A stretch of 64,000 nucleotides of DNA. Origin: Nostoc commune NIES-4072 (lineage in GTDB: Bacteria; Cyanobacteriota; Cyanobacteriia; Cyanobacteriales; Nostocaceae). The DNA lies in the NCBI RefSeq assembly GCF_003113895.1, contig NZ_BDUD01000001.1, positions 124,001-188,000 on the forward strand. Reading direction: 5' to 3'. The notes under the pieces are model-generated. The model saw only the letters and a program-made list of their open reading frames with translations, was not told the DNA's origin and made no database searches. The position numbers and the translations under genes are program-made. This document shows positions 17,352 to 21,632 of the stretch, piece by piece (the stretch's first letter is position 1; every line of letters begins with the position of its first letter).

Positions 17352-18758
17352 TTATCTTTGTCTCCCTGCTCCCTGCTCCCCTGCCCCTCTGCTTCCTACT
17401 TCCGGTTTCACTTGGACTGTGGCACCAGGCACTAGGTTGAATTGTCCATCAGTGACTACTTGTTCGTCTGGTTTCAACCCTTGCTTAATCACTGTTTCGT
17501 TCCCAACGGTGTCACCTACCGTAATTGGACGCATTTCTGCTGTTTTGTCAGGTTTGACTACATACACAAACTGTCCCTGTTGTCCACTTTGTACTGCTTG
17601 GGAAGGCACAGTAATGGCATTTGGTTCTTCGCTCAGTTTGAGTACTACATTGACAAACTGCCCCGGAAACAGGCGCTCGTCAGCGTTGGCAAAAGTACCC
17701 TTAAGTTGAATTGTGCCTGTTTGGGTATTGACTCCACTATCAACAAAGGTGAGTTCGCCTCGTACCGGATGCCCTGCATCTTTAGGAGGTAAAGCATCAA
17801 CTGCTAATTTGCCGTTATTAGCACTGTATTTTTTGATGTCTGGCAGCAGTCGCTGTGGAATGGAAAAGTTGACATAAATCGGGCGAATTTGGCTGATTGT
17901 AATCAGTGGATCATCGGCATTCGCTTGTACCAAATTGCCTTGATTTAGTTTGAGGCTTCCTGTACGTCCAGCAATTGGTGAGTAAATAGAACTGTAAGAA
18001 AGCTGAACTTTGGCATTAGCGATCGCAGCTTCATCTGAAGCTACTGCTGCCTGGGCATTTTGGACATCTGCTTGGGCTGCCGCCACTGCTGCTTGAGCAT
18101 TTGCCACACCACCTCGATCTGCGTTTACCGTTGCCTGTTGAGCATTAGCAGTAGTCTGATACTGTTCCGCCTGTTCTTTACTGATTGCCCCTTGCTTGAG
18201 CAAGCTAGCATAACGTCGAGCCTGCACATTTGCATTTGTTGCCTGGGACTTATCCTTCATTACATTCGCTTTTGCCTGGTTCACCTGGGCGATCGCTTGT
18301 AGCACATTTGCCTGTGCCTGTTTCACCTGCGCTAAATCTTTGGCTTTGGCAGCATTAGCTTGCATCAGTGCGGCTTGTAGAGGGCGGGAATCAATTTTAA
18401 ATAACAAGTCTCCTTTCTTAACGTTCTGTCCTTGCTGAAAATAGACTCCCGTAAGTTGTCCACCCACTTGAGACTTGACAGATACTGTAGAATATGCTTC
18501 TACTGTTCCCGTAGCCGATAGCTGTATTGGAATCGTTTTTTGAGCCGCAGTAGCAACCACCACTGGTACAGCTCGTTTTTTTCCTGTTTCTTTTCCAGTT
18601 GATTGGGCTTCGGAAGCATTACAGGCACTACACAAATAGGCCAGACTTAAAATAAGTAGCGAGAACCGCCCTCTTTGAATAACGCTCTGAAAACGAGGAA
18701 CAGTTTGAGCGGCCAAGGACGAAGAGTTTATCGTCTGAACAGGGGCTAAACAGCGCAT
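17352..18758 (-). CDS. RND efflux periplasmic adaptor (membrane fusion protein)
   Basis: 468 residues. An N-terminal hydrophobic segment (about 30-46) and nearby cysteines suggest a signal peptide, possibly lipoprotein. Next come the first lipoyl half (TVEAYSTVSVKSQVGGQLTGVYFQQGQNVKKGDLLFKID), a long Ala/Gln-rich coiled-coil hairpin, the second lipoyl half (IYSPIAGRTGSLKLNQGNLV), a beta-barrel and a membrane-proximal domain. It links the RND pump to an outer-membrane channel. The pump gene follows after 244 bases of repeat-containing DNA on the same strand. The last residues (GSRGAGEQGAGRQR) are translated genome repeat. The start is uncertain; no good Shine-Dalgarno sequence is seen. Confidence 0.9.
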   Translation of the reverse strand: MRCLAPVQTINSSSLAAQTVPRFQSVIQRGRFSLLILSLAYLCSACNASEAQSTGKETGKKRAVPVVVATAAQKTIPIQLSATGTVEAYSTVSVKSQVGGQLTGVYFQQGQNVKKGDLLFKIDSRPLQAALMQANAAKAKDLAQVKQAQANVLQAIAQVNQAKANVMKDKSQATNANVQARRYASLLKQGAISKEQAEQYQTTANAQQATVNADRGGVANAQAAVAAAQADVQNAQAAVASDEAAIANAKVQLSYSSIYSPIAGRTGSLKLNQGNLVQANADDPLITISQIRPIYVNFSIPQRLLPDIKKYSANNGKLAVDALPPKDAGHPVRGELTFVDSGVNTQTGTIQLKGTFANADERLFPGQFVNVVLKLSEEPNAITVPSQAVQSGQQGQFVYVVKPDKTAEMRPITVGDTVGNETVIKQGLKPDEQVVTDGQFNLVPGATVQVKPEVGSRGAGEQGAGRQR

Positions 18759-19199
18759 ATCAACAATTCTGGAGGAAAGGGGAAAAGACAGACACGTACT
18801 AGCTTGTCATTAGACATCGCATTTTCCGCAAAATGGATGGTTGGTTGCGATTAATCTAATTAGAGAAGCGTAATATTAGTTAAGCTAAACATTAGTGTAC
18901 TAATATTATGTTTTTTCGCCTACCCCTTTAGGAGAGAAATTGTTGTTAAATTTTATGTAAGTTTATTTTACGAAGGCGTAGTTTACCGCCGTAGGCATCG
19001 CAGTTTATCTTTCAGCCCAAATAAATATTTTGACTCATCTCACGGCTACAAAAACATCGCTTGTCTTTCCGACATATTGCGATCGCGACACTCGTAGACT
19101 CGTTAACGCTCCGCTATCGTTTTCATAAAAAGCCGTGCAAAAATCAAAGTCATTAGTACCAATGACTAATGACCAATGACTGATGACTAATAACTAAAT
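18759..19199. other. Intergenic region with efflux-operon promoter and heptamer repeats
   Basis: Holds the inverted repeat at 18869-18906 on the upstream side of the adaptor gene. Near 19151-19198 there is a run of TAATGAC/CAATGAC heptamers, a short tandem repeat class that recurs at about 21535-21565, 41530-41600 and 62293-62332. Confidence 0.6.
18869..18906. promoter_or_regulatory. Perfect 10-bp inverted repeat upstream of the efflux genes
   Basis: TAATATTAGT (18869-18878) and its exact complement ACTAATATTA (18897-18906) are separated by 18 bases; an inner ATTAGT-N2-ACTAAT also exists. It lies 111 bases upstream of the adaptor start. It could be an operator for a TetR- or MarR-like repressor; no regulator gene is adjacent. 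It is AT rich, so an RNA hairpin role is less likely. Confidence 0.4.
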
Positions 19200-20069
19200 T
19201 TAAGCAGCACAAAAAATCGGGGCAGGTTTGGAACCCGCCCCGACATCTGATATACTGCGCCCAACGGCTGTTGCTACAGGCTTTAAACTATCAACTAAAT
19301 GCACCATATCTTCTAAAGAAAGTGCTTGACGAGCATCAGAAACAGATTTTTCTGGTTCTGGGTGACATTCAATAATTAATCCATCAGCACCGCAAGCGAT
19401 CGCAGCCCTAGCGACAGGTGCAACCAACTCTCGTTTTCCAACGGCATGGGAAGGATCTACAATCACAGGCAGGTGAGTTATTTGTTTGAGTGCTGCCACT
19501 GCCCCTAAATCTAGAACGTTACGGGTGTAATCATCGAAACTGCGGATACCTCTTTCGCACAACACCACATCAGCATTCCCGTGGCTGAGGATATATTCAG
19601 CAGCCATAACGAATTCTTCAATTGTCGCTGCTAAACCACGTTTAAGTAGTATTGGTTTACCAGCTTGTCCCAAAGCTTTGAGCAAGTCGAAGTTTTGCAT
19701 ATTGCGGCTACCAACTTGAAGCATATCAGCATGGGCGGCGACTACTTCAATTTGAGAAATTGACATAACTTCGGTGACAACTGGCATAAGGTAATGCGAT
19801 CGTATCCTTGCCAAAATTTCTAATCCTTCTTCTCCCATACCTTGGAAAGCATAGGGAGATGTGCGGGGTTTGTAGACACCGCCACGCAACCCTTGGACAG
19901 ATGCAGTAGATAGCATTTGGGCGACTATCTCCATTTGTTCTAGACTTTCAACAGTGCAGGGGCCGCCGATAATTACCAGTTCTTCGCTCCCGAAAGCGAC
20001 TTTTTTTGAGATTTTAACGATTGTTTGGTGGTTCAAATGAGATTGTGCGGCAAGTTTGGCGTTAATCAT
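19200..20069 (-). CDS. aroF: 3-deoxy-7-phosphoheptulonate (DAHP) synthase, type I-beta
   Basis: 289 residues. It condenses phosphoenolpyruvate and erythrose 4-phosphate, the first step of the shikimate pathway. Motifs: GGPCTVES with the metal-ligand cysteine at 38, KPRTSPYAFQG, DPSHAVGKRE, and ECHPEPEKSVSDARQAL. There is no N-terminal ferredoxin-like or chorismate-mutase regulatory domain, so no allosteric site is obvious. Instead, the 5' leader (20070-20420) looks like a transcription attenuator with an aromatic leader peptide. An AGGAG precedes the ATG (TTAGGAGAACGAAACC). The last 18 or so residues (SDVGAGSKPAPIFCAA) come from an inverted-repeat element fused to the end. Confidence 0.94.
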   Translation of the reverse strand: MINAKLAAQSHLNHQTIVKISKKVAFGSEELVIIGGPCTVESLEQMEIVAQMLSTASVQGLRGGVYKPRTSPYAFQGMGEEGLEILARIRSHYLMPVVTEVMSISQIEVVAAHADMLQVGSRNMQNFDLLKALGQAGKPILLKRGLAATIEEFVMAAEYILSHGNADVVLCERGIRSFDDYTRNVLDLGAVAALKQITHLPVIVDPSHAVGKRELVAPVARAAIACGADGLIIECHPEPEKSVSDARQALSLEDMVHLVDSLKPVATAVGRSISDVGAGSKPAPIFCAA

Positions 20070-20114
20070 GGTTTCGTTCTCCTAAAAATTGAGTATTGGG
20101 CACTATTTTGCGAT

Positions 20115-20149
20115 AAAAAAAAGCCCGAAACCTTTGAAGAGTTCCGGGC
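20115..20149 (-). terminator. Intrinsic terminator in the aroF leader, with competing antiterminator
   Basis: On the minus strand GCCCGGAAC (20149-20141) pairs with GTTTCGGGC (20131-20123), nine pairs, then eight T (20122-20115). The 5' arm contains CCCGGAA, which is exactly complementary to TTCCGGG at 20187-20181. That segment is the last codons of the leader peptide, so the two pairings exclude each other. This is the layout of a ribosome-controlled attenuator: a ribosome finishing the peptide masks TTCCGGG and allows termination, while a ribosome stalled at the aromatic codons leaves it free. Confidence 0.85.
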
Positions 20150-20177
20150 GCGTTCTGAATCATCGACATGACGCTAT

Positions 20178-20240
20178 TTACCCGGAATTTAGTCTGGGCC
20201 AAAAGTAAAAGCCATAAAACCAGCTATTTAAATAAGTCAT
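20178..20240 (-). CDS. Aromatic-rich leader peptide of aroF (20 aa)
   Basis: ATG at 20240 and TAA at 20180-20178. The peptide is MTYLNSWFYGFYFWPRLNSG: three Tyr, three Phe and two Trp within residues 3-14. AAGGAG (20258-20253) provides a ribosome binding site. It sits between the probable promoter (20457-20429) and the leader terminator (20149-20115) of a DAHP synthase gene, whose end products are exactly these three amino acids. Known leader peptides of amino-acid operons have this composition and position. No annotation is likely to include it because of its size. Confidence 0.85.
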   Translation of the reverse strand: MTYLNSWFYGFYFWPRLNSG

Positions 20241-20262
20241 GACGATGAAATTCTCCTTAAAA

Positions 20263-20343
20263 CAACAAAAACCGCAGAGTTCGCTCTGCGGTTCACCGGG
20301 GGGTTTCCGTTAGGAAACTCAATTCACTCCCTGTGAACCACCC
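20263..20343 (-). ncRNA. Structured leader RNA with its own terminator-like hairpin
   Basis: Upstream of the leader peptide, the minus strand contains GGTTCAC (20341-20335) pairing with GTGAACC (20298-20292), enclosing GTTTCC-TAAC-GGAAAC. Directly after comes ACCGCAGAG-CGAA-CTCTGCGGT with a T-rich tail (TTTTTGTTGTTTT). The first outer stem and the second hairpin share the ACC bases, so they compete. It could be a separate small RNA, a ligand-sensing element or a first regulatory terminator. I could not match it to a known riboswitch. Confidence 0.55.
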
Positions 20344-20428
20344 TAAACCAAAAATAAAAGTAGGAATTTGTGTGAAGCATTTGTGGGGCTTTTGCTAGAA
20401 AACTTAATAAATATGCCTATTTAAAGTA

Positions 20429-20457
20429 ACATTAACAGGAACACTAGGCGGTGTCAA
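20429..20457 (-). promoter_or_regulatory. Probable promoter of the aroF leader transcript
   Basis: TTGACA (20457-20452), 17-base spacer, TAATGT (20434-20429). The -35 box is perfect and the spacing optimal; the -10 box is weak. It would start a transcript near 20420, about 350 bases before aroF. Confidence 0.5.
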
Positions 20458-20964
20458 GACCCCCCACAAACTATAAAAAAAGCGATAGACTCAGTACAAA
20501 TGTGGGAGTAAAGACTAGTAACGCTTGGCAAAATTCAAAATCACGCCCTGTTCTGATTGTGTAGTGAAGTGAAGTGCTAGTTGCTTGTTTGCGTAGATAA
20601 AGAAAGCTGCTTGTTATTAGATATCACTCTAGTTAATAAGTTTACAAATTATTGTTGTGTCATGACTAATGGGTAGTGTAGATGATCAAAAATCAATGGT
20701 AAAAAATCTAAAAATTCAGAATCTGGCGATTCTCTAAAAGAAGAGAATACAGCAAAATCAAGGTCATCAGAGAGAACTCTAAAGGGTGACTTCCGTCTCT
20801 GAGAAGTTTAAAAAGCCAGGATTGAGAAGTTAAAATATATAATTCTCCTGACTTGTCACCTCAACTTGCGAAAGCTTATTACAGACAATTGACGATCGCC
20901 ATACATTTTTCTTACCTAAGTCCTCATTGACCAGATCAACTTTTTAGGATCATTCAGTTTGATT
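20458..20964. other. Intergenic, 0.5 kb, divergent between aroF and 20965
   Basis: AT rich, with no reading frame of note. It contains the upstream part of the aroF promoter and, near its right end, presumably the promoter of the next gene. Confidence 0.5.
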
Positions 20965-21459
20965 ATGCCCAGTTCCAAAATCTTAGCCCAATCTTTCGAC
21001 TATTATGGAGTTTACCCCTGCCCAGTCTGTCGGATAGGTAAGATTTCTCACATGCCAATGATGGAAGCTATGGCTTGTGACTTTTGCCAAGAGATTTTTA
21101 CAGTCAACTTAGAACTAGAGCAAATCAAGATGCCTTCTAGACAACCACCCTTAATTTGGCGTTGGAATGGGTTTAGTTGGACAGAAGGCCAGTTGGAAGG
21201 CGTGGAATTAGGTTGGGGTTATGGACTAGCAGCAGCAATTTTTGTAATTCTTCCCACTTCTTTAATTGGCATAGTAGCTTACTATTTCCCTGCTAATCTT
21301 AAGGAACCCATTACTTGGACACCATATATTTGGACGATATTAACTTTCTTATCACATTTATCAATTATTGTTTGGATTGTGATTGAAATTTATCAAATTC
21401 CAGTTGCAGCATATTTGAGAGCGATCGCTCGATGGAGAAATGGGGAGATGGGGAGATGA
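20965..21459 (+). CDS. Membrane protein with N-terminal zinc-ribbon-like motif
   Basis: ATG at 20965 is preferred to an in-frame TTG two codons upstream. About 164 residues. CPVCRIGKISHMPMMEAMACDFC has two CxxC pairs suggesting a small zinc ribbon (about 17-41), followed by a W-rich stretch and two transmembrane helices (about 80-103 and 115-140). Function unknown; similar short proteins are found in cyanobacteria. The final residues (RWRNGEMGR) coincide with a genome low-complexity repeat (ATGGGGAGATGGGGAGATGA), so the original C-terminus may have been altered. Confidence 0.75.
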   Translation: MPSSKILAQSFDYYGVYPCPVCRIGKISHMPMMEAMACDFCQEIFTVNLELEQIKMPSRQPPLIWRWNGFSWTEGQLEGVELGWGYGLAAAIFVILPTSLIGIVAYYFPANLKEPITWTPYIWTILTFLSHLSIIVWIVIEIYQIPVAAYLRAIARWRNGEMGR

Positions 21460-21632
21460 GGAAGTGGCAAAAGAGGAGCAGGGGGAGCAGGGGAGGCAGG
21501 GGAAGATGAGGGAGCGGGAGAAACTAATGCCCTATGCCTAATGACTAATGACTAATGACTAATGACATAATGATGCAGCGAATAAATGGCTCCATCACTC
21601 ATAATTAAGTTGATTGTCCACCAAAATATCGT

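Follow-up and report, generated by a model that had tools for sequence, protein, structure and literature searches.

What controls transcription into aroF, the DAHP synthase gene of Nostoc commune NIES-4072, in the 64,000-nt stretch of DNA that was analyzed here (the window)? DAHP synthase catalyzes the first committed step to Phe, Tyr, and Trp, and biosynthetic genes of this kind have a well-known precedent in the enterobacterial trp and pheA systems, wherein trpL and pheL encode leader peptides rich in the end product and an antiterminator competes with a terminator, all within a single module. The initial annotation proposed an attenuator of this type before aroF. The comparisons presented below support that proposal and also show where it was incomplete: there are two such devices in series, the second has an additional helix (P0), and the arrangement reaches across the class. 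The aroF leader RNA can, with considerable assurance, be read as two ribosome-mediated transcription attenuators in series behind one upstream promoter, and these tandem switches probably let transcription through only upon ribosome stalling from aromatic shortage.

On the minus strand, the order is promoter, LP1, terminator 1, LP2, terminator 2, and aroF, with the following elements:

20429..20457, minus strand: putative promoter, with a -35 box TTGACA (20457-20452), a 17-nt spacer, and a -10-like TAATGT (20434-20429), recognized from sequence
20324..20380, minus strand: leader peptide 1 (LP1), MLHTNSYFYFWFRVVHRE plus stop codon, recovered by an aromatic-cluster pattern in 204 of 206 loci
20329..20339, minus strand: 5' arm of antiterminator 1, GGTTCACAGGG, within the final LP1 codons, from covariation in 61 and 100 sequences
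20303..20318, minus strand: inner hairpin P1b, GTTTCC/GGAAAC, between the arms of antiterminator 1, from covariation in both alignments
20290..20300, minus strand: 3' arm of antiterminator 1, CCCGGTGAACC, overlapping the foot of terminator 1, from covariation and the duplex test
20269..20294, minus strand: terminator 1, stem-loop GAACCGCAGAG-CGAA-CTCTGCGGTTT followed by a T-rich tract, from the terminator scan and the 61-sequence alignment
20253..20258, minus strand: Shine-Dalgarno-like AAGGAG of LP2, directly after the T tract of terminator 1, recognized from sequence
20229..20248, minus strand: 5' arm of helix P0, spanning the LP2 start codon, from minimum-free-energy (MFE) folding, covariation, and own-versus-swapped pairing
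20178..20240, minus strand: leader peptide 2 (LP2), MTYLNSWFYGFYFWPRLNSG plus stop codon, matched by pattern in 192 of 206 loci
20181..20187, minus strand: 5' arm of antiterminator 2, TTCCGGG, in the final LP2 codons, from pairing tests
20160..20180, minus strand: 3' arm of helix P0, comprising the LP2 stop codon and the sequence beyond it (TAAATAGCGTCATGTCGATGA), from the same three kinds of evidence as its 5' arm
20142..20148, minus strand: 3' arm of antiterminator 2, CCCGGAA, within the 5' arm of terminator 2, from pairing tests
20115..20149, minus strand: terminator 2, a stem-loop (20149-20123) and eight T (20122-20115), from the terminator scan and folding
19200..20069, minus strand: aroF, DAHP synthase of 289 aa (NCBIfam NF006421 at 397.7 bits, TIGR01361, PF00793)

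The gene 3' of the leader is the DAHP synthase that had been named from the sequence, and the Trp, Tyr, and Phe codons of the leaders correspond to the end products of the pathway entered by this enzyme. The accompanying suggestion that the enzyme lacks a regulatory domain receives indirect support, in that the 289-aa protein covers positions 70-337 of a 338-position family model and its N-terminal part is absent. The final aroF codons themselves contain a strong GC-rich hairpin followed by six T (19199-19261, minus strand; coding tail GAGSKPAPIFCAA), which looks like a palindromic repeat or a terminator fused into the C terminus of the gene.

The interval 20115-20457 had been described accurately in its downstream half: the 20-codon frame at 20240-20178 reads as stated and has its own AAGGAG upstream, eight of its residues 3-14 are aromatic (Y3, W7, F8, Y9, F11, Y12, F13, and W14), TTCCGGG at 20187-20181 is the exact complement of CCCGGAA at 20148-20142, and the strong terminator claimed at 20149-20115 consists of the stem and the eight T listed above. 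LP1, its terminator, and the -35 box, which lie in the same interval, had been missed. In module 1, GGTTCACAGGG (20339-20329) pairs with CCCGGTGAACC (20300-20290) with one A-G mismatch in the window, and no clear Shine-Dalgarno sequence is seen there for LP1. In module 2, the segment 20250-20112 folded alone reaches -43.8 kcal/mol, as against -27.3 ± 3.6 for 200 shuffles. In the window, just 28 nt lie between the stem of terminator 1 and the start of LP2, so that space for a second promoter is scant. Of 196 loci, 190 have a TTGACN box at 20-130 nt upstream of the LP1 ATG, most commonly at 76-77 nt, as opposed to 20 of 196 shuffled regions. The promoter scan of the window did not list the -35/-10 pair before LP1 because TAATGT matches TATAAT at fewer than four bases.

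The combination of an aromatic short frame and a terminator exceeds what chance would give. Both strands of the 64-kb window were scanned for ORFs of 10-45 codons in which some stretch of 12 residues has at least six aromatics and which are followed within 110 nt by a terminator; only LP1 and LP2 were returned, and 11 such ORFs when the terminator was not required. Likewise, when the stricter threshold of 7 in 12 aromatic residues was applied, with a terminator, to both strands of 516 kb from 80 related loci, LP1 or LP2 accounted for every one of the 99 ORFs (95 assigned by pattern and four by eye). Within the same genome, aromatic-rich short ORFs also precede pheA, trpE-like genes, and the paralogous DAHP synthases (L002-L004, L229-L232), and no strict-type terminator was found upstream on the strand of the gene.

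A check of the region upstream of aroF in other Nostocales had been proposed along with the attenuator, and the leader frame is kept there. The initial annotation would have been refuted had leader frame or stems proved unconserved among relatives, and this is not what the relatives show. Among the relatives, which are the best 80 of at least 554 and mostly Nostocales by name with one Trichocoleus, both LP1 and LP2 occur in 77 of the 77 with enough upstream DNA; the three left out (L016, L041, and L050) have contig ends that leave 102, 67, and 47 nt upstream. This count combines a scan of 600 nt upstream with a maximum of two hits and a scan of 1200 nt upstream: the longer scan shows LP1 or LP2 where the shorter did not, and the shorter shows the LP2 of L005 and the LP1 of L009 and L071, which the 1200-nt pattern missed. 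In most of these best 80 of at least 554 relatives, a second aromatic leader precedes the first by about 140 nt. LP2 and aroF are separated by about 120 to about 700 nt (L069) across L005-L084, which means that gains or losses of DNA after terminator 2 have left the modules untouched.

Beyond these relatives, a covariance model of module 1 (R1), built on 61 dereplicated sequences of the 77, window included, matches 134 of 388 genomes of the class, one match per genome. A second model (R2), built on 100 R1 matches, finds module 1 in 143 of the 388, again once per genome, spanning 72 of 159 genera and, by an eye count, 16 family labels; 245 of the 388 have no module-1 match, eight of them among the 148 genomes with a protein match at E ≤ 1e-90. 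Of the R1 loci, 130 of 134 were retrieved (30, and 100 of the remaining 104; G251, G270, G288, and G368 were left out), and 129 of these 130 have downstream a match to the DAHP synthase, 58-100% identical to the window protein. The exception is L147, wherein the contig ends at that point, and one of the 129, L094, is a remnant.

The reverse search, from protein to leader, gives a comparable picture. Four of the 148 protein-match genomes (G013, G020, G033, and G072) were treated as carrying paralogues rather than orthologues, their matches being 54-55% identical with open frames of 344-380 aa. Among the 144 orthologue genomes, R2 matches 140, the remaining four carry at least module 2, and at least one module is present in all 144. 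The four comprise G057 with divergent copies of both modules, G348 and G230 with module 2 only, and G326 with a module 1 foot at the contig end plus module 2. Three genomes are matched by R2 only: G109 falls below the protein cut-off and has the gene and both leaders (L136), G128 is a contig end, and G116 is a remnant. In 132 inspected orthologue loci (127 fetched loci plus G057, G156, G230, G326, and G348), both modules are present in 123, module 1 only in six (L132, L163, L164, L170, L187, and L194), module 2 only in two, and one is cut; for the other 12 of the 144, the coordinates put the model match shortly 5' of the gene and in the same orientation. In the remnant of G116 (L225:1220-1560, minus strand), module 1 leads into part of a DAHP synthase (residues 46-104 by tblastn); no 3' half of terminator 1, no module 2, and no further piece of the gene turned up at this locus. 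In several genomes of the same family (e.g., genus label g5), the DAHP synthase (E ≤ 1e-90) and the leader are both missing, which suggests joint loss of the two. Given the 16 family labels, the tandem arrangement might tentatively be seen as an old feature of the class.

The residues of the leaders suggest what has been selected. By a looser pattern, LP1 was recovered in 204 and LP2 in 192 of 206 loci, which were gathered via the gene or via the RNA model, the latter including LP1 sequence; the LP2 losses are in part failures of the pattern, as L129, L142, L149, L167, L169, and L200 do show LP2. With percentages conditional on the aromatic cluster that the pattern itself demands, five positions of the LP1 core are F/Y/W in 93-99% and a sixth in 79%, and the core of the LP2 sequences ending in SG is 89-99% aromatic, as compared with 14% at the Gly/Ser position between its two runs. 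Trp, Tyr, and Phe are present in 203, 201, and 204 of 204 LP1 and in 192, 189, and 192 of 192 LP2, with ATG starts in 200 of 204 and 177 of 192, respectively. Core substitutions are mostly within F/Y/W, and Leu, Ser, Cys, Ile, and Val are rare among the listed residues. This interchange is read as selection for aromatic codons, as would be expected of a sensor of tRNA charging. The good conservation of the peptides within the Nostocales set could also be accommodated if they were arrest peptides that sense a free ligand in the manner of TnaC; such an account is quite improbable, for F, Y, and W replace one another at the core class-wide, LP1 differs from LP2, and it would be odd for excess product to induce a biosynthetic gene.

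As for the RNA helices, the check on covariation in the Nostocales gave a divided result. Over the 61 sequences, antiterminator 1 with P1b is 97.8% paired and shows four two-sided changes versus 0.3 in shuffles, whereas antiterminator 2 is 93.9% paired with no two-sided change, slid controls scoring higher on covariation; terminator 1, with 99.7% of cells paired and nine of ten pairs never varying, gives no covariation signal because it is nearly invariant. P0 is 84.7% paired in the same set, with 31 two-sided cells against 11.0 ± 2.7 in shuffles (none of 500 as high) and at most 21 in slid controls, and with seven pairs showing two-sided changes against 4.6 in shuffles (12 of 500 as high) and up to eight in slid controls.

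The divergent set comprises 100 hand-chosen loci of the 130, and its alignment leans toward the R1 structure because it was fitted to R1. In this R1-fitted alignment, antiterminator 1 with P1b is 91.8% paired, 14 of 17 pairs have two-sided changes, and the two-sided cells number 140 as against 50.9 ± 5.3 in shuffles and at most 38 in slid controls. Taken separately in the same R1-fitted alignment, the antiterminator 1 helix has 94.5% of cells paired with two-sided changes in 8 of 11 pairs, and P1b is 83.7% paired with such changes in 6 of 6. An alignment-free comparison, wherein the tail of each leader was duplexed with its own or with other sequences' terminator arms over 2000 permutations, drew on the loci that passed, 150 of 206 in module 1 and 181 of 206 in module 2; at least one of the module-1 calls, that of L188, is wrong. 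For module 1 (n = 111), own duplexes average -23.5 versus -19.1 kcal/mol swapped, the best permutation reaching -20.1, and the own duplex beats the mean swap in 103 of 111. For module 2 (n = 94), the values are -16.5 versus -14.6, with a best permutation of -15.3, and own beats mean swap in 68 of 94.

The pairing of antiterminator 2 extends beyond its CCGGG core. Among 92 divergent loci, the three successive bases that flank the core are paired in 87, 85, and 66% versus 79, 63, and 64% when shuffled. Only the first two exceed all 5000 shuffles, and the third carries no signal; the second flanking base is U-A in 38 and C-G in 34 cases. For P0 in the divergent loci, own pairing averages -11.12 versus -9.03 swapped (best of 3000 permutations, -9.87) and beats the swap in 76 of 108, whereas the negative control, LP1 with its own post-stop region, gives -10.57 versus -10.18, within the permutations. 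Covariation is thus strong for antiterminator 1 and less strong for antiterminator 2 and P0. Two divergent loci have leaders of unusual extent: in L131 (G277), the LP1 stop comes early, just before the antiterminator 1 arm, and arm and partner have changed together (GTTCGCCCGGA/TCCGGGCGAAC); in L097 (G381), LP2 has no stop before terminator 2 and its frame continues through the terminator, with CTCCGGGC/GCCCGGAG pairing still possible.

Strong covarying RNA structure is also what one would expect if the leader were bound by a protein or a metabolite (T-box, riboswitch, or TRAP-like) and the ORFs were incidental. This is extremely unlikely: a search of 18500-21500 against Rfam found no family at cut-off, conserved ORFs supply coding bases on which the structure depends, and the aromatic codons of LP1 are constrained although they lie outside antiterminator 1 and terminator 1. 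The Rfam search returned two sub-threshold matches only, both far below cut-off and set aside: NsiR1 (19.8 of 39 bits) on the terminator 2 hairpin and mir-8521 (25.9 of 80 bits) on the hairpin at the aroF 3' end.

Codons and helices together suggest the following mechanism, in which we infer that the leaders are translated and that the terminators act in vivo. Trp, Tyr, and Phe codons are clustered in each short leader ORF, the end of which falls within the 5' arm of its antiterminator. When charged aromatic tRNAs are plentiful, the ribosome would reach the stop codon and cover the arm, and the terminator would form; if even one of the three ran short, stalling of the ribosome in the aromatic cluster would leave the arm free, and the antiterminator would capture the terminator by its foot or 5' arm ahead of its completion. 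RNA polymerase would have to pass both terminators to reach aroF.

The geometry is compatible with this. The accessible portion of PMC3641672 quotes a ribosome footprint of 12-15 nt from the P site; a stalled ribosome was assumed here to cover 12 nt counted from the first base of the A-site codon. By this arithmetic, in the window, the edge of a ribosome on W11 of LP1 or W14 of LP2 falls immediately ahead of the antiterminator 5' arm or where the arm begins, a ribosome on F12 of LP1 would cover four bases of the arm, and one at the stop codon covers the arm.

Folding with these ribosome positions gave different outcomes on truncated and on full-length transcripts. If the transcript stops short of the 3' arm of the terminator while the ribosome occupies the last aromatic codon, an antiterminator of at least 5 bp is in the MFE fold in 147 of 150 loci for module 1 and 174 of 181 for module 2, as compared with 95-110 and 98-111 in tail-shuffled controls. 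When the ribosome is placed at the stop codon, 142 of 150 and 177 of 181 loci have at least 90% of the terminator formed, and none has the antiterminator. When the full-length RNA is folded with the ribosome held at the last aromatic codon, at least 90% of terminator 1 is formed in 96 of 150 loci, with antiterminator 1 alongside in 145; for terminator 2 the figure is 140 of 181, with an antiterminator 2 of at least 5 bp in 86. Placing the ribosome three codons earlier lowers the terminators at least 90% formed to 39 of 150 and 109 of 181, respectively, and in full-length folds of the window sequence itself both terminators stay complete or nearly so. As the terminators persist in full-length folds, the switch would need a folding order or, in module 1, loss of the terminator foot.

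The persistence of terminator 1, a complete intrinsic terminator that is formed in 96 of 150 full-length stalled-ribosome folds, might be taken to mean that only module 2 attenuates, with LP1 and terminator 1 forming a separate upstream transcript or a free-standing gene for a small RNA or small protein; G230 and G348, with module 2 alone, would be in line with this. A conserved -35 box just before LP1, the covariation of antiterminator 1 with LP1's own codons, and the six genomes with module 1 alone before aroF all speak against that reading, as does the nearest upstream ORF of at least 100 aa (20959-21459), which is divergent on the opposite strand, and we consider it very unlikely. The simpler notion that terminator 1 ends an upstream gene was rejected: no ORF of at least 100 aa lies upstream on the same strand, and hence there is no such gene for it to end. 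Two attenuators in series remain the favored reading.

The two modules differ in their predicted untranslated states. In MFE folds of untranslated module 1, antiterminator 1 reaches at least 7 bp in 127 of 140, and the terminator foot is intact in 25 and broken in 74. In those of untranslated module 2, P0 reaches at least 5 bp in 142 of 178 and the terminator foot is intact in 147 of 178. The folds predict that, without translation, module 1 reads through and module 2 terminates, i.e., opposite defaults. P0, by pairing the LP2 start codon with post-stop sequence, would hold untranslated module 2 in the terminating state. In this it resembles the 1:2 protector of trp and pheA, which keeps an untranslated leader terminated, and it differs in pairing the start-codon region with the post-stop region and in belonging to another gene with two modules; the order of its arms implies a pseudoknot with antiterminator 2. 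One might venture, short of even confidence, that the leader is a two-stage gate on entry into aromatic biosynthesis, with module 1 open unless LP1 is finished, and module 2 shut unless LP2 starts and then stalls. Module 2 would be shut by default because P0, once its 3' arm has been made, masks the LP2 start codon.

Parallels might be struck with known systems. Both modules show the hallmarks of the trp/phe type: an aromatic leader ORF, an intrinsic terminator before aroF, and a conserved antiterminator, weaker in module 2. According to the accessible parts of PMC11802643 and PMC4046766, Corynebacterium glutamicum has a ribosome-mediated attenuator, aroR-aroF (Neshat et al. 2014), before a DAHP synthase gene, with Phe-Tyr-Phe codons in aroR and expression rising under Phe limitation. 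The Nostoc locus is alike in placing an aromatic leader attenuator before such a gene; as far as those parts go, the actinobacterial system has one leader with no Trp codons mentioned, whereas Nostoc has two, each with all three aromatics, and P0. Available sections of PMC8632094 describe, for Acholeplasma, uORFC-13-1, a uORF with a terminator exclusively upstream of aroF, for which the speed of Phe incorporation was proposed as the control; this is a computational case from another phylum, with 24 sequences and a single uORF with at least one Phe codon.

For tandem leaders, the closest precedent is Salmonella mgtCBR, which the consulted part of PMC3641672 presents as having two tandem leader ORFs, each altering downstream transcription, and as a "singular example". 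Two leader ORFs before what is putatively one transcription unit are likewise seen in the cyanobacterial sequence. In Salmonella the mgtCBR signals differ (ATP and proline) and the hairpins are unlike intrinsic terminators, whereas both cyanobacterial modules carry aromatic codons and end in intrinsic terminators; different signals per module are not indicated by codon content, as both have Trp, Tyr, and Phe codons. In the open-access literature, outside of which lie most subscription papers, no description of a cyanobacterial aroF attenuator was found; cyanobacteria, Nostoc, aroF, DAHP, and aromatic are all absent from the accessible text of PMC2965389, and that of PMC12125101 has nothing on aroR. 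What is new is the occurrence across Cyanobacteria of two aroF attenuators in series, each with Trp, Tyr, and Phe codons, single aroF attenuators and tandem leader ORFs being known types. A 2016 leader-gene paper (PMC4833913), in its accessible part, speaks of no reliable data for attenuation in cyanobacteria. As far as the open-access literature shows, ribosome-mediated attenuation could here be documented for the first time in the phylum, a claim put forward with reserve as part of the reading with opposite defaults.

The signature accompanies every orthologue of one type of DAHP synthase in the class sample (144 of 144), and it bears on how cyanobacteria regulate the shikimate pathway, the source for scytonemin and engineered aromatics. 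The locus also offers a concrete test of transcription-translation coupling, namely, whether the position of a ribosome can steer RNA polymerase in cyanobacteria. It further poses a question of design: why should there be two attenuators with the same codon repertoire and opposite predicted defaults? If these defaults are true, full aroF expression would need both active initiation and a shortage of aromatic tRNAs, and aroF would stay off when translation fails otherwise, e.g., in darkness or upon energy loss.
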